A stretch of DNA of 64,000 nucleotides from Pseudobutyrivibrio sp. YE44. GTDB lineage: Bacteria > Bacillota > Clostridia > Lachnospirales > Lachnospiraceae. The notes beneath the pieces were generated by a model. The model was not told where the DNA came from. It ran no database searches and saw only the letters and a list, made by a program, of their open reading frames with translations. Shown here in pieces: positions 47,849 through 64,000 of this stretch. Location of the stretch: assembly GCF_900104335.1 (NCBI RefSeq), contig NZ_FMXT01000002.1, positions 434,001 to 498,000 on the forward strand, written 5' to 3'. The stretch's first letter is position 1, and each line of letters begins with the position of its first letter. The position numbers and the translations under genes were made by a program.

Positions 47849-47944
47849 GAGCCCACTGTAGGCATCAAGCTATTATGTTTCTCAAGGAAAGCTTTCTATG
47901 GCTTTCCGGAGAAATATAATGCTTGTAGCCGTAACAGTGGGCTC
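47849..47944. terminator. Long 96-nt hairpin between convergent genes
   Basis: GAGCCCACTGT/ACAGTGGGCTC closes a stem that continues with short internal loops through CAAGC/GCTTG, ATTAT/ATAAT, TTTCTC/GAGAAA and GGAAAGC/GCTTTCC, about 37 base pairs in all. Only weak T-rich tails follow. It separates the GH13 gene from the convergent binding-protein gene and may terminate both. Confidence 0.7.
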
Positions 47945-48950: not shown

Positions 48951-48962
48951 GCTGACACCTCC

Positions 48963-50966
48963 CTAAATCTTAAACTGCTGTACATAAGATGTAAGCGTAT
49001 CTGATGTATTAGCAAGCTCATGAGAATTATCAGCTACATCCTGACTGCTTTGAGTAATGCTGTTTGCCTGCTCAACCATATGATGACTGGTCTCAAGAAT
49101 TTCATCGGCACTAGCGGCCTGCTCCTCAGAAATAGCAGCTACATTTCCTGCTACATCATCTACCTTTTGAACATCCTGAATCATAAGATCAATCAGCTCA
49201 TTAGACTTCTCAATGTTCTGGTAAATCTGATCGAAGGTTCCAACGGCTGTATGAATCAACTCGCTGTTTTCTTCAATATCCCTAGCACTTGCCTCGGCCT
49301 GACTAACAACATCCTCAATCAAACGTCTAACGTCATTAATCAGATTAGAAATATTATCAGCACTCTGTGCGGAATTCTGTGCCAACTTTCCAATCTCATC
49401 AGCAACAACTGCGAAGCCCTTTCCAGCTTCACCTGCACGGGCTGCCTCAATTGATGCATTAAGCGATAACAGATTTGTTTCGTCTGCAATCTCGGCAATC
49501 AAGCTTACAATCTTTGTAATCTCATCGGAAGCCTTGCCTACCTTATCGATAGACTCTACCAGCTCATTATTGCTAGCCTTGATGCCATCCATAGCCTTTG
49601 AAAGATGTTCCATATCCGAACGGCCCTTCTTACTGATTTCAACAGTCTCCTTCATGCTGGCATTAGCCTGATTAGAATTTTCTCTTGTATCAGCAACTAC
49701 CATAGCAAGAGTTGTGGCATTCTCTGCAATTTCATTAACTGCAACTGCAAGCTGATCTACAGTAGTATTCAAATTCTGCATTGCTTCTGCCTGAGATCTT
49801 GAAGCATCATACATATCCTTTGAAACTCGATCAGAATTCTCAGACTGTTCTTTTAGCTTTTCAGATTCGTTATTAATAGAGGTCAACATGCCTCTCATGG
49901 ATTTAACGAATTCTGAAACCTTTCCACCCATTATGCCGATTTCATCGTTGCTTTCCTGAACAATATCTATTGTGAAATCACCTTCAGACATGTCAGTAAT
50001 ATGTTTGGTAATAGTACCAAGAGGTGCAATTACTCTTGCGATTGTAATGTTGATTAAAACAATAATGAAAACTAAAGCAACTAAACCTATAGCAACCATT
50101 ACGTTTGTAAGTCTAAGCACTGTCTTCATGAATACAGAATGTGGTACGTATGATACTAATACCCAATCAGTACCTTCAATTTGTCTAAAAGCAACCTCAT
50201 AGTCTCCAATAGTTGTTGTACTAAAGTCTCTAGTAAAGAGCTTTACAGCAATCCCCTTCATAGTTGGGTCACTATCTGAATCTAGAAGCTGCGTAGAAAC
50301 TCTACTATCATCTCTATGGGCAAGAATAGTATTTGTATCTGCAAGGTCAACTAAGAAGGACTCTGCTGAATCCATCTTTACACCTGAGTTAACGATTATA
50401 CTAATCTGGTCCAAGGTTAAGTCTGCAGCAAAAACTCTTACTTCAGAATTACCATCATCAATAAGACCTGCCGCACTTAGTACATTTTTTCCATCCTCAT
50501 CTGTGTAGGAAGAACCATAAGCAAGATTTACTCTGGTAATACCTTCCTTAAACCAAGGCTCATCCTTTATAGTGCCAAACTGCTTTGAGGATTCTTCAGC
50601 CTTAAAGGTACGACCATTTACAGATGCAATATATGGTCCATTTTTACAGTATTTATTTACACCATAGTTAGCATCCATAATAGCCTGTAATTGTTCATCA
50701 TCAGGCTTGGTTTTTTCAATATCATTTTTTACAGCAGAAAAGGTGGCTAAATTTTGATTTAGCCATGCCTCAATATTATCTCCCTGATTTGCAATTGACG
50801 AATCAAGCTGTGCCGTAGCCATATCAATAAGGGCTGTTCTTGCCAGCTGACTCGAAAAAGCTACCAGTGCAATAACTGTAAGAGTTACTGCTGGTACAAT
50901 AATGAATAACAGCTTAGTTTTAATCTTTCGCTGTTTTCTGTTTTTAGAGTTAGATTCTTTTGCCAT
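48963..50966 (-). CDS. Methyl-accepting chemotaxis protein 1
   Basis: A 667-residue receptor: cytoplasmic basic start, TM1 (about 18-40), an extracellular Cache-type sensor to about 275 ([20 protein letters not shown]), TM2, HAMP ([20 protein letters not shown]) and a signalling domain with the conserved tip [34 protein letters not shown] (shown in parts in the family). The start at 50966 follows AGGAGGTAGGTGC. It is transcribed with its binding protein. No CheA/CheW genes lie in the window. Confidence 0.92.
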
Positions 50967-52561: not shown

Positions 52562-52580
52562 CTATTCATCCCCTTTTTTT
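52554..52580 (+). terminator. Terminator of the CYTH gene
   Basis: GGGGATG/CATCCCC with a 6-nt loop and seven T; the stop codon lies in the loop region. The giant hairpin element begins within two bases of the T-tract. Confidence 0.92.
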
Positions 52581-52581
52581 G

Positions 52582-53190
52582 TCACTATTCACAGACTTCA
52601 GTTATTTGATTTCTAGGGGCACCTTATACTATGGAGGTATAGGTGAATTTGAGCAGAATAATAGATTCTCTTAATGCTGCAAATGTAGCTTTCAGTGGAT
52701 GTCCTTTCATTGGTTTTGCACTTTGTAGCTACTGTATGTATAGCTCAGACACTTGTAAGTTATAACAATGCTCCCCCTCAGGGTATATAACTATCAGTTG
52801 CTTCCATACTCCATTTGCTAAGTAAAATTAAAAAAGCAGGTTTTGAATATATAGTCACCGTGGCACATTCAACATCGTGTCTCAAGTGACCACTGCAGCC
52901 GCCATCCTAGCGGCTGCTGCCTATATATACAAAACCTGCTTTTTATTTTACTAAGCGCATTTCAAATTCCAGCAACTGATAGTTATGTACCCTGAGGGGG
53001 AGCATTACTAAAAATAGAGTGTGTCTGAGCAATACATACTGTAGTGCACAAAGTGCAAAGAATTGAAAGAACATCCACAATAAGAAAAGCTACATGTAGC
53101 ATTTAGAGAATCATTATTTTGCGATTGAACCTATACGTCCATAGTATAAGGTGTCCCTAGAATCAGAGGAGTACGCACTGTGAATAGTGA
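52582..53190 (+). repeat. Giant hairpin element, copy 1
   Basis: A 609-bp imperfect palindrome with no credible ORF. The ends TCACTATTCACAG/CTGTGAATAGTGA pair, as do the outer arms (52582-52671 with 53106-53190), middle arms (for example CCCCCTCAGGGT...ACCCTGAGGGGG) and inner arms (AAAGCAGGTTTTG...CAAAACCTGCTTT). The tip (about 52853-52931) has TATATAG/CTATATA closing two small hairpins, one being GCAGCCGC/GCGGCTGC. It fills the space between the T-tracts of two convergent terminators. Strand is assigned arbitrarily from the tip (GTCACCGTGGCAC reading +). Confidence 0.85.
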
Positions 53191-53191
53191 T

Positions 53192-53225
53192 AAAAAAATC
53201 CCGGCGAGAATAGTCCTCGCCGGGA
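53192..53225 (-). terminator. Terminator of the GH13_18 phosphorylase gene
   Basis: TCCCGGCGAG/CTCGCCGGGA with a 7-nt loop and seven T on the minus strand; giant hairpin copy 1 ends one base from the T-tract. Confidence 0.92.
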
Positions 53226-53231
53226 AATTCA

Positions 53232-54878
53232 TTATTTGATAATCTGGTACTCGTAAGTGCTAAAATCAGCCTTAAGAGTGATGGTATCAGCCCCCTTACT
53301 CCATGTAAAGGAAACAACTGAACCTTCAGTATCAATTGTAAGCTCGCTGTCGAATCCAAATGCTGGATGTGATTTGCGAAGCTGTAAAAGCTCAATTTGC
53401 TTTTTAACTACCTCTCTTTGAAGATCAGATTCAATCTGCTCCAATGAAAGGTTTGTTCTATTGATTTCTTTGTGACCGCCTGCACCAGCTCTTGCTACTG
53501 CTTCGTGGTCATTCTTGCCTGCGAACAGGTCAAGGTACCATACCTGTGGCTTACCTGGCATGAACATCTGAATTGCTCTTGCGAAAAGCATCTTCTTGTC
53601 GTCCTCACCAAGTGCGCTGTAATATGTGGCATTTACTTGATAGTACATGTTCTTTGCACCGTGAAGATCCTTAACGAATCCACCACGTCCAACGATTGTA
53701 TCAATCAAGCTCTGAATCTCTTCCTCTGGGAGAAGTCCCTTAAGGTCAAGAAGTGGAATACCGTCGTGACATCCAAGCATGTTTACCACGCGGATATCGT
53801 TGTCAACTAATTCCTTTGCCCACTGGATAAGTTTGTCTGGGTTCTTCTTTTCAATAGCGTAGATAAGAAGTCCTGGAAGGAAGAAGTCGTATGTCATGTA
53901 GCCTTTGCTTGCTACAAGTTCGTATATCTTCTCTCCGTAGCTTGCATGAATCTCAGGAAGAAGTGAAAGCTGATTCTTGTCAGCTAAATCCTTAACCTTC
54001 TGAAGAAGGTCCCATGTTCCTGGGTCGTTAAGGAAGTTCTTCTCGCCTGGCTCCTTTGGAGCATAAGCAAACGCATCAAGACGAACAATCTTTGCACCAT
54101 AAGATGATAATGTCTTGAGAGTGTTCTCATAGAATTCCCATACTAATGGTGACTTAATGTTTAAGTCCATCTGACCTAAATATCTGCGACTGCTTTCAAG
54201 AAGCTCTACCACCTGTGAGCGGTACTTGTCATATTTGCCAAGTTTTAAATCTGCAACAGTGCATCCCTCAGAAATCTGAGCATTAACACACTCTGCTAAT
54301 CTCTGTGCTGCCACATACTGGATATCCATAACCTCCATAAGGTCCTCAGCCTCTAAAGACTTGTAGCGAACCTCCTGGTAGAAGGTGTTCCAATATGGTA
54401 CATTACGTCCATCTGGAAATCTTACCATAAGAATTGGTAAGCCTGGCTTTCTGAAAAACATATCCTTGATATATTTCTCATCTGGCTGGATGTAACCAGC
54501 CTCGGTCATCTGACCACAGCCTTCCCAAAATTTGTTCCAGTCAATAAAGAAATCTTTATACTTGGACTTTTCGCCATTTTTGATAATATCCTGAAACTCT
54601 TTTGATAACACAGATGCGTGATTCAAAATGAAATCAAGCTTAAGGTCAATATCCATGCCCTTAATATCTTCGATAGCCTGACGGCTACCAAGCTCTTCAT
54701 TGATTCCATAATCGATAACAGAGAAGCCTCTGTCTAAGTCTGTGTTGAAAATACTTGGAAGGATGTAAAAACTCTCAAAAGTGTCTTTGAGTTCATCCTT
54801 CTTTAAAACCTTTACGATGTCATCTAAAGTGCCACCCATAGAATCTGGGTAAGCATTCAGCATAGGTCCGTTGCTCAT
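53232..54878 (-). CDS. gtfA: Sucrose-phosphorylase-family enzyme (GH13_18)
   Basis: A 548-residue GH13_18 enzyme. The N-terminus (LNAYPDSMGGTLDDI) is shared by sucrose phosphorylases; the nucleophile is in VRLDAFAYA, the acid/base in LLPEIHA and the third acid in GCHDGIP. Such enzymes cleave sucrose, sucrose 6F-phosphate or glucosylglycerate with phosphate to glucose 1-phosphate. The start at 54878 follows TTGGAGGAATAAA. The upstream partner is a P-loop kinase, so a substrate other than plain sucrose is possible. The gtfA symbol is by family only. Confidence 0.85.
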   Translation of the reverse strand: MSNGPMLNAYPDSMGGTLDDIVKVLKKDELKDTFESFYILPSIFNTDLDRGFSVIDYGINEELGSRQAIEDIKGMDIDLKLDFILNHASVLSKEFQDIIKNGEKSKYKDFFIDWNKFWEGCGQMTEAGYIQPDEKYIKDMFFRKPGLPILMVRFPDGRNVPYWNTFYQEVRYKSLEAEDLMEVMDIQYVAAQRLAECVNAQISEGCTVADLKLGKYDKYRSQVVELLESSRRYLGQMDLNIKSPLVWEFYENTLKTLSSYGAKIVRLDAFAYAPKEPGEKNFLNDPGTWDLLQKVKDLADKNQLSLLPEIHASYGEKIYELVASKGYMTYDFFLPGLLIYAIEKKNPDKLIQWAKELVDNDIRVVNMLGCHDGIPLLDLKGLLPEEEIQSLIDTIVGRGGFVKDLHGAKNMYYQVNATYYSALGEDDKKMLFARAIQMFMPGKPQVWYLDLFAGKNDHEAVARAGAGGHKEINRTNLSLEQIESDLQREVVKKQIELLQLRKSHPAFGFDSELTIDTEGSVVSFTWSKGADTITLKADFSTYEYQIIK

Positions 54879-54899: not shown

Positions 54900-55038
54900 G
54901 TCAGTTACGGTAACAAGCCCTCATCCACTGGTTACAGTCACAAGCCATAGATATCTGCCGCTCAGCTATAGAAAGCTTCGCTTGAGACATCTATGAGCTT
55001 GTTACTTACCAGTGAATTTTAGCTTGTTACCTACTGAC
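54900..55038. repeat. Hairpin element, family B, copy 2
   Basis: A 139-bp palindrome between the kinase and phosphorylase genes. GTCAGTTACGGTAACAAGC pairs with GCTTGTTACCTACTGAC; inner arms include CACTGGTTAC/GTTACTTACCAGTG and CATAGAT/ATCTATG. The tip TCAGCTATAGAAAGCTTCGC matches copy 1 (106-191), while most of the stem is longer and different. Confidence 0.65.
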
Positions 55039-55966: not shown

Positions 55967-56089
55967 AATAATAATCCTCCTATTAAACTAAGATATAAAC
56001 AACACGCAAATAGTATACAAAAATTTTCGTCTTCCGAAAACCTGTTTTCATTAAGTTTATCTATTTTAACGAAAAAACTGTCTATATGC

Positions 56090-56791
56090 ACAAAGCCTCT
56101 ATCCCTCCTATTCCTGCCGCCCCGCCTCAGCCTGGTCCCTCCCCTCAGTAACCAAAGAATGCGCCCCAGCCCTGCCCCGGCGGCTCTCCATATCTTAATC
56201 TAAAGCCTAAGAATTTGTATTTTCTAAATGCTACACTGCGCTTTTGTTATTGTAGGTGTCTTTCCAATTCGTTGCACTTTTATCGCTACAGTATGTATTG
56301 CTCAGACACACACTATTTTATGTAATACTCCTCATCAGGGGATATAACTATCAGTTGCTGTAGTTTGAAGTGCGCTTAGTAAAATAACAAGCAGTTTTTG
56401 CATGTATAGGCAGCAGCCGCTAGGAAGGCGGCTGCAGTGGTCACTTGAGACACGATGTTGAATGTGCCACGGTGACTATACATACAAAACCTGCTTGTTA
56501 AATTTTACTTAGCAAACGGAGTATGGAAGCAACTGATAGTTATATCCCCTGATGAGGAGTATTAGTTGAGCCTACAAGTGTCTGAGCTATACATACAGTA
56601 GCTTCAAAGTGCAACACCAGTGGAAAGACACCTACTAAAAGCTCGTTTGTAGCATTAAGAAAATGCAAAATTCTTATGCAATTATAGCTTAAGATATGGA
56701 GAGCCTCCGGGGCAGGGCTGGGGCACATTATATTATGTGTACGGGGAGGGACCAGGCTGAGAAGGGGCGGCAGGGATAGGAGATTTGTGCG
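56090..56791 (-). repeat. Giant hairpin element, copy 2
   Basis: About 700 bp. The core (about 56199-56683) is close to copy 3 and, read in reverse complement, to copy 1. The outer arms (56090-56198 and 56684-56791) are GC-rich and complementary to each other, for example GGCTCTCCATATCTTA/TAAGATATGGAGAGCC and CCTGCCGCCCCGCCTCAGCC with its partner, but unrelated to the arms of copies 1 and 3. The right end abuts the T-tract of the terminator at 56794. Unlike copy 1 the left end lies upstream of the kinase gene, not at a terminator. No credible ORF. Confidence 0.85.
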
Positions 56792-59579: not shown

Positions 59580-61590
59580 AATCATCTACCTCCTCTCCAT
59601 CAATCTTAAACTGCTGAACATAACCGGTTAGCTTTTGGGAAGTGTTAGCCAGTTCATGAGAATTGTCTGCAACATCCTGACTGCTTTGAGTTATGTTGTT
59701 TGCCTGCTCTACCATGTTTCTACTTGTTTCAAGGATTTCATCTGCACTAGCAGCCTGTTCCTCGGAAATAGCAGCTACATTTCCAGCAACATCATCAACC
59801 TTTTGAACGTCTGCAATCATTAAATCAATCAACTCATTTGACTGCTGAATGTTCTGATAGATTTGATCGAAGGTTCCAACTGCTGTATGAATCAAATCTG
59901 TGTTGGCCTCAATCTCTTGAGCACTTGTCTCTGCCTGTGAAACAACACTCTCAATCGCCTTTCTAACATCATCAATGAGCTTGGCAATGTTTTCTGCACT
60001 CTGGGCTGAGTTCTGTGCCAACTTTCCAATTTCACTTGCAACAACTGCGAAGCCCTTTCCTGCCTCTCCAGCTCTAGCTGCTTCAATTGACGCATTAAGT
60101 GACAACAGATTGGTCTCATCTGCAATCTCAGCAATAAGTCCTACTATCTTTGTGATTTCTTCTGAGGCCTTACCAACATCATTAATTGAATCTACCAACT
60201 GGTCATTACTTGTCTTAATACCTTCCATAGCATGTGAAAGCTGTTCCATATCAGCTCGACCACGCTTACTGATTTCAACAGTCTCCTTCATGCTCTCATT
60301 GGCCTGAATAGAATTTTCTCGTGTATCAGCCACTACCATTGCAAGAGTGGTTGCATTCTCAGCAATCTCGTTGACTGCAATTGCAAGCTGGTCTACTGTG
60401 GTGTTAAGATTTTGCATCGCTTCTGATTGAGTACGAGATGCATCAAACATATCCTTTGAAACTCTATCTGAATTATCAGACTGTTCCTTAAGCCTCTCGG
60501 ATTCCTCATTAATTGATGAAAGCATGCTTCTCATAGACTGAACGAATTCGGAAACCTTACTTCCCATAAGACCAATCTCATCATTGCTCTCCTGGGTAAC
60601 CTTAATTGTAAAGTCACCTGCAGACATATCAGTAATATTCTTGGTAATACGTCCAAGAGGTGCAATAACCTTTGCTACAACTATATTAATGATAAGTACA
60701 ATAAGGATAATTGCTGTCAAACCAACAAATACCAAAATATTAGTCAGTTTATACGCGTCGCTAAGAATTATGTCATTACTAATATAAGAAACAAGATACC
60801 ACTCTGTACCTGCAATATTTCTAAAGGCTACCTGATATCCTTCGATTTCTGATGTGGTATAGTCCTTCTCGGCCATCTTCTTTGCTATACCAGCCATCAA
60901 CTTATTAGAATCAGTATCCGTCAAAGTTGTATTAAGTCTTGTGGAATCGCGATGGGCAAGAATCTTGTTATCAAAGCTATCAATAAGGAAGGAAGCAGCC
61001 TGGTCCATTTTTACACCAGAGTTTACAATGATTGCAATCTGGTCCAAGGTTAAGTCTGCAGCAACAATCTTAATACCAGGTTCTCCATCATTTAAAATTC
61101 CGGACGCACTAATTACAGAGTTGCCATCTGCATCAATATAGGCACCTCCATAATTCATATTAATTCTTGTAAGACCCTGTTGATACCATGATTCATCCTT
61201 GGCATTTGAAACCACCTTATCAGACTGATGGGCCTTAACCACTTTTCCGGAATCGTAGGCAATATAAATTCCATTCGGACAATTTGAATTGTAGCCGTAG
61301 AAGGTGTCTAACATGTTCTGCAGCTCTTCATCATCCGGATGTCCTTTTTCTATTACCTTTTTAAGAGAAGAGAAGTTCTCAAGATTTTTATTCAACCAAG
61401 CCTCGATATTATCCCCCTGGTTGGATATAGAAGAATTGAGCTGTTCTGTTGCCATTTCGGTCATACTTTTCCTAGATATCCAGCCAGCAATAACAACCAA
61501 AGCTAGCACCAGAACAATAACTACAGGTAAAATTAAAACTAGTAATTTGTTTTTAATTTTTGCTGTTTTCTTTGTTTTTGCTCCAGACAT
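59569..61590 (-). CDS. Methyl-accepting chemotaxis protein 2
   Basis: A 673-residue paralogue of the receptor at 48963. It has TM1 (about 18-40), a Cache-type sensor ([20 protein letters not shown]), TM2, HAMP ([20 protein letters not shown]) and a signalling domain nearly identical to the first. The sensor is more diverged than the signalling domain, consistent with different ligands. The start at 61590 (MSGAKTKK) follows AAGGAGAAGTGCC. Its last codons overlap the binding-protein gene by 11 bp. Confidence 0.92.
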
Positions 61591-63112: not shown

Positions 63113-63373
63113 ATGATTGACAGAGGAAGACTTTTATCCCTCGGCTATTATAAAAAAGCTGCCTCCTTCACAGGCAGTGACGGGCCAAAATGCTACAAAA
63201 TCGAACGCTTTCGCGAGGAAGATTCCGAAGAAGACCAGTTCAAAGCCACCATCTGGCCTGGCCCTTACAGTTCCGACAACACTCCCGACGACCAAAAGCA
63301 GTCACGCCTGGCCCCATTCACCGAAGAAGGCCTAGCCGAACTCGTCGACTGGATGAACCAACTCAGTTTCTAA
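63113..63373 (+). CDS. Small conserved-looking protein of 86 residues
   Basis: A soluble protein (YYKKAASFTGSDGPKCYKIE, then ATIWPGPYSSDNTPDDQKQS and FTEEGLAELVDWMNQL). AAAGGAGAACCATCT precedes the ATG. I recall similar short proteins with a WPGPY core in Lachnospiraceae but no assigned function. Codons are C-rich compared with most of the window. A terminator follows. Confidence 0.65.
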   Translation: MIDRGRLLSLGYYKKAASFTGSDGPKCYKIERFREEDSEEDQFKATIWPGPYSSDNTPDDQKQSRLAPFTEEGLAELVDWMNQLSF

Positions 63374-63384
63374 CACAACCTACA

Positions 63385-63416
63385 AAGGAGCCATGGCCCA
63401 GCACCAGGCTTCTTTT
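63385..63416 (+). terminator. Terminator of the 86-residue protein gene
   Basis: GGAGCC/GGCTTC (one wobble) with an inner TGG/CCA stem and five T. Giant hairpin copy 3 begins a short distance downstream. Confidence 0.7.
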
Positions 63417-63452
63417 TCATTCCTCTTCACCAACTGCCCCCCTCTCACCTGC

Positions 63453-64000
63453 TCCGCCACGGCCGCCCACTGGGGGTTCTTGGTACAGCCTAAGAATTTG
63501 TATTTTCTAAATGCTACACTGCGCTTTTTTTATTGTACGTGTCTTTTAAATTCATTGCACTTTTATCGCTACAGTATGTATAGCACAGACACACACTATT
63601 TTATGTAATGCTCCCCATCAGGAGGTATAACTATCAGTTGCTGGAATTTGTAATGCGCTTAGTAGAATAAAAAGCAGGTTTTGTATGTATAGGCAGCAGC
63701 CGCTAGGATGGCGGCTGCAGTGGTCACTTGAAACACGATGTTGAATGTGCCACGGTGACTATACATTCAAAACCTGCTTTTTTAATTCTACTTAGCAAAT
63801 GGAGTATGGAAGCAGCTGATAGTTATACCTCCTGGTGGGGAGCATTGTTTTAAGCTACAAGTGTCTGTGCTATACATACAGTAGCTTCAAAAGTGCAACA
63901 CCAATTAAAAGACACGTACTAAAAGCTCGTTTGTAGCATTAAGAAAATGCAAAATTCATAGTCAATCATACCAAAACCCCCAGCGGGCGGCCGTGGCGGG
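63453..64000 (-). repeat. Giant hairpin element, copy 3 (cut by window end)
   Basis: The core (about 63488-63960) closely matches copy 2 in the same orientation. The outer arms CCGCCACGGCCGCCCACTGG (left, from 63454) and the GC-rich right end (63967-64000) are complementary, and unrelated to the outer arms of the other copies. The element continues past 64000. The left boundary could extend back to the terminator T-tract at 63416. No credible ORF. Confidence 0.83.

Follow-up and report, generated by a model that had tools for sequence, protein, structure and literature searches.

Three Long Palindromes in the Window

The window, by which is meant the whole stretch of 64,000 nucleotides that was analyzed, is one part of the genome of Pseudobutyrivibrio sp. 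YE44 (3.24 Mb in 28 contigs), a member of the Clostridia, and contains three copies of a long palindromic element (Table 1). One window protein has its closest named relatives at 83-96% identity, in a comparison that may leave out the own genome, and these likewise point to Pseudobutyrivibrio. The palindrome of copy 2 occupies 56105-56782 and is framed by an extra, outermost 7-bp inverted pair (GCACAAA at 56088-56094 and TTTGTGC at 56784-56790); the bounds of 56090-56791 given for this copy in an earlier note, which was made from the sequence alone, were correct. Copy 3 begins on its left side at the stop codon of the gene located there; a terminator comes next, and the inverted counterpart of that terminator falls outside the window. 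The folding proposed in the earlier note was performed individually on copies 1 and 2, and both were far more stable than shuffled sequence, with −296.6 kcal/mol for copy 1 against a shuffled mean of −134.8 (z −27.8; none of 100 shuffles as good) and −426.1 kcal/mol for copy 2 against −201.1 (z −33.5; none of 20 shuffles as good). This bears out the description of each copy as one long palindrome and confirms that the palindromes are genuine and far above chance expectation. The cores are shared among the copies, as had been stated: copies 2 and 3 are 92% identical across a 300-nt stretch, and copy 1 matches copy 2 in inverted orientation, with 87% identity over 425 nt. The likeness does not extend to the outer arms, which are non-homologous in most copies. 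The window also holds two large genes on the same strand, judged from their sequence to be methyl-accepting chemotaxis-like, whose 3′ parts (48959-49258 and 59595-59894) are 83% identical.

Table 1. Positions of the three element copies and their parts within the window.
Feature	Position	Strand	Remarks
Copy 1, complete element, terminal repeats included	52581..53191	-	611 bp
Copy 1, palindrome including flanking terminators	52577-53244	reverse orientation	
Copy 1, left terminal inverted repeat GTCACTATTCACAG	52581..52594	+	
Copy 1, right terminal inverted repeat CTGTGAATAGTGAT	53178..53191	-	
Copy 1, conserved core	52687..53111	-	87% inverted match to copy 2 core
Copy 1, tip, Rfam RF01731 (TwoAYGGAY)	52806..52966	-	58 bits (gathering 43)
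Copy 2, entire palindrome including 7-bp outer pair GCACAAA/TTTGTGC	56088..56790	+	
Copy 2, left arm, locus-specific, GC-rich	56105..56202	+	85% complementary to 56685-56782
Copy 2, conserved core	56219..56643	+	tip not reported at RF01731 gathering score
Copy 2, right arm, locus-specific	56685..56782	+	
Copy 3, cut at window end	63372..64000	+	palindrome to window-equivalent 64097
Copy 3, conserved core	63502..63927	+	contig C23:497502-497927
Copy 3, tip, Rfam RF01731	63647..63807	+	55.7 bits

Copy Number and Genomic Setting

The family, which the earlier note had taken to consist of three copies, is far larger. A search with the 425-nt core of copy 2 returned 69 matching stretches in the genome, which were reduced to about 32 distinct places (one of them only 54 nt long), as a palindrome is matched on both strands and some places are split; in 24 of these places a single match covers at least 75% of the core. 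The element is 0.6-0.8 kb long and has no ORF of its own. According to simple ORF calls at 22 loci of this genome, 11 copies lie between convergent genes, 6 between tandem genes and 5 between divergent genes. Because six copies are situated within about 100 bases of contig ends (contigs C11, C15 at both ends, C19, C23, and C25), the palindromes seem to break assemblies.

Terminal Repeats and Sites Without the Element

Terminal repeats close to GTTACTATTCACAG were identified in 5 of the 26 own loci scanned (L016, which is copy 1, L011, L014, L017, and L022), and none were found in copies 2 and 3. The earlier note was right that there is no credible gene; its statement that typical terminal features are missing does not hold for copy 1, which has terminal inverted repeats (Table 1). 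The exact 14-nt terminal motif occurs in 22 of the 29 genomes of the genus and the reversed control in 0 of 29, and across the genus repeats of this kind bound 10 fetched elements of 579-730 bp, every one of which contains the core. The same terminal repeats also delimit a multi-hairpin element of 187-195 bp that is unrelated and has no core.

This small MITE, with GTTACTATTCACAG ends, is found at L071 (1498-1689), L074, L077, L079, and L082 in the own genome and at L214, L227, L234, L237, and other loci. The Rfam family Clostridiales-1 (RF01699) matches it weakly in 4 of 13 scanned loci (29.3, 26.1, 25.3, and 23.6 bits; gathering 48), and because of these matches the RF01699 family may likewise be part of a mobile element with such ends. 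At L217 (1500-1535) and L222 (1474-1514), only 35-40 bp separate the terminal motif from its complement, and the two form a small hairpin by themselves.

Sites that lack the element were found in relatives. The copy 1 site is without it in G003, G012, G014, G018, G019, and G025; the copy 2 site is without it in G017, where 34 bases are present instead; and the sites of own loci L018, L004, and L009 are without it in several relatives. Among 24 elements (one orthologous duplicate was left out), a perfect 8-bp target duplication was seen in one, the giant element at L036, and 7 of 8 positions agreed in one short element, at L077; the other 22 had at most 5 of 8 bp matching, and the mean match at 8 bp was 3.38, against 2.68 in mismatched pairs. 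No transposase gene with these ends was found in a non-exhaustive search that covered exact 14-mers in 29 genomes and, with mismatches, 19 fetched loci. The sole plus/minus pair of exact 14-mers located 1-3 kb apart in the 29 genomes (G005:C4:153407-154670) holds a complete 192-bp element, and the mismatch-tolerant check of 19 loci gave a 975-bp pair with a PilZ gene and a 1.2-kb pair in L086 with a 393-aa ORF. The high copy number (about 32), the lack of a credible ORF, the empty sites in relatives and the terminal repeats in a subset support the non-autonomous mobile palindrome that the earlier note had offered as one of its two readings, and we are highly confident that the element is a non-autonomous mobile element.

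Bacterial MITEs and small palindromic repeats (REP, Correia and similar) are, like this element, non-autonomous, multicopy and intergenic, without an ORF and with terminal inverted repeats in a subset. Unlike them, the present palindrome is far longer, its arms are locus-specific and change in concert, its core is inverted at some loci, and terminators are annexed, as described below.

Sites without the element are not always bare; as judged by eye, some carry a short terminator and some another hairpin of about 90-130 bp. It could accordingly be proposed that mobility resides in the core, which would insert into the loops of pre-existing hairpins. Half of the own loci examined (11 of 22) lie between convergent genes, where terminators are expected, and the core-free sites of relatives often have such hairpins, namely at the copy 1 site (G003, G012, G014, and G019), the L018 site (G005), the L004 site (G003 and G022), and the L009 site (G003, G014, and G028). 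However, none of the core-free sites inspected (by eye, unaligned) has arms recognizably like those of the element, there is no long hairpin at the copy 2 site in G017 or at the L004 site in G017, G005, and G009, and in some copies the arms are enclosed by defined terminal repeats. Insertion of a core into older hairpins is therefore regarded as very unlikely.

An Rfam RNA at the Tip

Rfam family TwoAYGGAY (RF01731), a 168-position motif, matches the tips of copies 1 and 3 end to end. A match to a known Rfam family had been named in the earlier note as evidence against its reading, and for these two tips it was found; the claim that the element is unlike known families fails there. In the literature covered (bioRxiv and most subscription papers lay outside its scope), no account was found of the 0.6-0.8 kb element around the tip, and there was likewise nothing on Pseudobutyrivibrio palindromes, drum RNA or bacterial MITEs with long hairpins, nor on mobile palindromes spreading over neighboring terminators. 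RF01731 alone matched in the window at gathering score; a giant RNA of the OLE, GOLLD, ROOL, HEARO or group II intron type, none of which the earlier note had recognized, was rejected for want of such a match.

In the whole genome, RF01731 scored above the 43-bit gathering cut-off at 11 places, including two of the three window copies. With strict filters, it was identified in 29 of the 61 genomes of the relatives set, namely in 27 of 29 of the genus (the own genome included), 2 of 8 from other genera of the family and 0 of 24 from the other families of the order, and in 0 of 14 controls; these counts are lower bounds, as genome G010, although scored absent, matches the tip region at 91-93% on the DNA level. 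In another genus, at L032, two oppositely oriented TwoAYGGAY tips (1501-1668 on the minus strand and 1910-2079 on the plus strand) lie a few hundred bases apart, and G036 (C33:53805, minus, and 54268, plus) is alike, a palindrome made of two whole RNA motifs.

The passages on TwoAYGGAY in the 2010 paper that describes it regard it as probably an RNA that is not cis-regulatory, and list it in human gut, Clostridiales and gamma-Proteobacteria (Weinberg, 2010; PMC2864571); CsrA binding is proposed in a passage of a later paper (PMC4333381). A weak CsrC match bore the same clan number as RF01731 (CL00106), and CsrA (PF02599) is present in 28 of the 29 genomes of the genus, the own genome included. 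In the tips of relatives (59 elements), exact AYGGAY occurs 77 times in the sense and 2 times in the antisense direction, with at least two motifs in 30 of the 59, whereas only 4 of 18 own elements have an exact motif, none has two, and it is absent from the central 170 nt of all three window copies. A strand-specific RNA signal thus exists in the family and is eroded in most own copies, including all three in the window. The tip in relatives possibly binds CsrA. Compared with Csr/Rsm-type CsrA-binding RNAs, the host has CsrA, the AYGGAY motifs are largely eroded in the own copies, and CsrA binding is a proposal; compared with the TwoAYGGAY family as described, the 168-position motif is here the tip of a 0.6-0.8 kb mobile palindrome, and none of the 18 own elements has both of the exact motifs that give the family its name. 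With the strand-specific motifs kept in relatives, the tip is probably a functional or parasitic RNA, and a functional one is reasonably likely.

RNA or DNA Selection on Pairing

An alignment of 20 tips contains 42 predicted pairs, 40 of which are changed on both sides, and 83 of its 840 cells are broken or gapped. Changes on both sides numbered 152 and one-sided changes 13, a tally that concerns TwoAYGGAY tips alone, with no control RNA family counted.

Selection of one RNA strand for pairing would be expected to leave more G.U pairs than A.C mismatches on the selected strand. Counted on the Rfam strand, there were 71 G.U and 40 A.C in the tip (0-90 nt; p 0.004), and the corresponding numbers in the arms were 106 and 140 (90-215 nt), 65 and 116 (215-300 nt), and 49 and 64 (300-450 nt). 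This test used 65 elements (12 of 77, with arms under 200 nt, and loci cut by contig ends were left out) and counts related elements separately, which makes the p values too small. When one element was taken per orthologous locus, the arms at 240-300 nt had 46 G.U and 77 A.C. Because there is a G.U excess in the tip and none in the arms, the tip leans to RNA and the arms, on the Rfam strand, do not; the A.C excess in the arms could stem from common ancestry of the columns, or else from selection acting on the opposite strand. What had been suggested as a large structured RNA is thus upheld for the tip, through RF01731, and not for the arms.

A giant structured RNA, in which selection on a single transcript pairs the whole 600-700 nt and compensatory mutation maintains the arms, would account for a tip that belongs to an Rfam RNA family, for the changes on both sides of nearly all tip pairs, for the G.U excess there (with related elements counted separately) and for AYGGAY motifs almost exclusively on the sense strand. 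It does not account for arms without a G.U excess on the Rfam strand in either count, and the degree to which both-side changes exceed one-sided ones in the tip (no control RNA family) also argues against it. Furthermore, where the flanks have diverged by 3%, both arms carry a mirrored indel and a changed block, and the core occurs in either orientation at one site (see below); a giant RNA is accordingly an unlikely explanation of the whole element.

Locus-Specific Arms and Their Concerted Change

The arms match themselves and little else. In the stretch 222-300 nt from the center (78 nt, 51 elements), the median score of an arm was 37 against its own partner arm (lowest 6), 9 against the arms of other elements and 8 against shuffled arms; this scoring left out 8 of 59 elements, which have short palindromes, and loci cut by contig ends. 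Only 28 of 1275 between-element pairs scored above the shuffled maximum, and these include orthologues and an AT-rich subfamily of the own genome. The 5′ arm is C-rich, with 34% C and 19% G, against 22% and 19% in the flanks.

The left and right arms of one species were compared with the left and right arms of another in 11 orthologous pairs, in which flank identity was 0.84-0.98 except for one flank, the right flank of L255/L259, which aligned poorly (0.496) and makes this a weak pair. The set E (L201/L199, with unalignable arms), L261, L262, and L197/L209 were left out of this count; L262 (G025) is an orthologous element with an apparent loss of about 150 bp from its right arm. Among 1002 ungapped columns, 630 were constant, 140 had the same arm difference in both species, 41 were crossed, which is the pattern that an inversion produces, 148 were single or mixed, and 43 had changed in both arms of one species together. 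The 43 concerted columns are spread over 7 of the 11 pairs, with none in the other 4, and do not represent 43 independent events, because species recur in several pairs, neighboring columns are not separate from one another and alignment is poor in the fast-changing part. L046/L253 has flanks of 97% and a core of 99% identity; even so, both arms have changed in 14 columns and, by eye, an indel is mirrored in both; when a donor of the mid-arm blocks of L046 and L253 was sought in all fetched loci, only short matches were found, at E 0.6 or worse. Loss of pairing in homologues, which the earlier note had said would speak against its reading, was not observed: pairing is kept, partly by coordinated arm changes.

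Under an alternative scenario, insertion itself creates the arms, perhaps through fold-back copying of the target in the course of transposition, and they only decay thereafter. In its favor, the arms are locus-specific, several include host flank, and 4 of the 11 pairs show no concerted change. This scenario is improbable, since L046 and L253 keep their outer arms and a 99% identical core and differ in the middle block of both arms, concerted changes after divergence are already present in 7 of the 11 pairs, and outward extension differs between orthologues. Copying from arm to arm, by comparison, is probable on the alignments of orthologous loci, and it is intermittent, because 4 of the 11 pairs lack concerted change and 140 columns keep an arm difference.

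A second hairpin family, of about 90 bp, was noticed at convergent gene ends (L094, L096, L099, L139, L184, and L186), at sites that have the giant hairpin in the own genome. By eye, the loops are alike (GTA.CTATCAAGCT ... AGGCTTGAGAGCGTAAC) and the stems vary by locus; no Rfam match was found at E 0.1 in the five scanned (L094, L096, L099, L139, and L184). This family may follow the same arm-copying rule. In the window, a pair of 46-nt inverted repeats (47858-47903 and 54964-55009; 76% complementary) resembles two copies of it.

Inversion and Exchange of the Core

Between species, the core is inverted at 3 of 10 orthologous loci, and possibly at 5. With matching flanks, core identity was 0.90 inverted against 0.61 direct in L210/L207, 0.983 against 0.652 in L037/L038, and 0.983 against 0.748 in L259/L260. 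The core strand is also opposite in L262 compared with L245/L247, and in L197/L209; since other copies match the cores of L197/L209 and L262 better, in a best-match comparison that left out loci cut by contig ends, the apparent inversions there may be core replacements. In L045/L052, the arms are orthologous and the cores merely 68% identical, which is not explained by arm copying alone. At the L018 site in G003, the element is oppositely oriented and has its own mirrored terminator pair. Where the sequence comes from a draft or a metagenome, a flip could be an artifact of assembly.

A segment between inverted repeats that is found in both orientations, as at these three loci between species, resembles an inverton. 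IS inversions between terminal inverted repeats (PMC3004938) are likewise inversions in place via such repeats; the repeats in the present case differ in being the locus-specific arms of a non-coding element.

Annexed Gene Ends and Terminators

At own loci L003, L008, L009, L012, L018, and L019, the palindrome reaches the stop codons of both convergent genes, at near-identical positions in the two arms (by eye). Of 36 convergent sites that have the element, 20 exceeded the 99% level for random pairs in the inverted similarity of their gene ends, as did 1 of 24 sites without it; this test took the last 12 nt plus 80 nt per gene and, for element-free sites, only gaps of at least 180 nt, some of the loci are orthologous, and the compared segments take in any arm that extends to the stop. 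The C-terminus of the right gene at the L018 site is ...RKKTK in the own genome, ...RKKRDA in G017 and ...RHKKKE in G009, while the left gene ends in ...ATDAK in both the own genome and G017; the two own gene ends have CAAAATAACATTC in common, as if sequence from the left had replaced the end of the right gene. Mirrored (inverted) terminator copies are present in L054 and L056 and lacking in the orthologous L207 and L210, and the copied stretch starts within the last codon of the left gene, which suggests that the terminator was copied from left to right. Copy 2 has the host bases GCACAAA, which the element-free site of G017 has as well, and repeats them inverted at its far end; this may be annexed host sequence, for which seven bases alone are only suggestive. 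Direct target duplication was rejected as the origin of the paired terminators, as the alignments show inverted copies.

A Proposed Model Based on Template Switching

Taken together, a MITE-like non-autonomous element that carries an RNA tip and whose arms are homogenized, extended and inverted by DNA template switching appears rather likely. In its complete form, such an element would consist of a terminal repeat, a self-complementary arm, a core of about 425 nt ending in the TwoAYGGAY tip, the second arm and a second terminal repeat. A transposase acting in trans probably moves it, given the copy number, empty sites and shared terminal repeats that are observed. Once inserted, the long palindrome would be a hotspot for template switching during DNA replication, in which one arm is recopied from the other, so that arm mutations and indels would reach both arms. 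Copying would at times run outward, so that the terminator of one neighbor, as far as its stop codon, would be placed in inverted form on the opposite side, and the same process would at times invert the core. These outcomes are seen in orthologous loci; that they are made by template switching, rather than by RecA-dependent or other conversion, is what we infer.

In the parts of the literature consulted for this mechanism, template switching is described as homogenizing inverted-repeat arms and inverting the spacer (PMC8604942, for short repeats), and as creating and maintaining hairpins (PMC8794818, for RNA stems), and the arm homogenization and core inversion reported here resemble this quasipalindrome correction. 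The events described there involve short repeats and few-base spacers, with 2-5 substitutions and loops of up to 7-8 nt (PMC8604942; PMC8794818), whereas here the arms can exceed 100 bp and the inverted core amounts to hundreds of bases, with template switching as the putative mechanism. The tip, MITEs and template switching are all already known; the scale of arm copying looks new. A stronger form of the model, put forward tentatively and at slightly less than an even chance, is a self-extending palindrome, in which repeated arm copying would lead to growth up to both stop codons, mirror-image terminators, arms evolving far faster than their surroundings and flipping of the RNA tip.

Implications

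An Rfam family known since 2010, for which no established function was found in the literature, gains a genomic context. If the self-extending reading is true, part of the covariation behind such Rfam calls would arise at the DNA level. The element is also a warning that compensatory base changes, the usual proof of a functional RNA, can come from DNA copying between arms; a DNA-level origin of compensatory changes has already been argued for RNA stems (PMC8794818). As the annexed terminators suggest, a parasite could in this way turn into a useful bidirectional terminator. Finally, the family could serve as a natural system of high copy number for following template switching, the growth of palindromes and their inversion in some 27 species of one genus.
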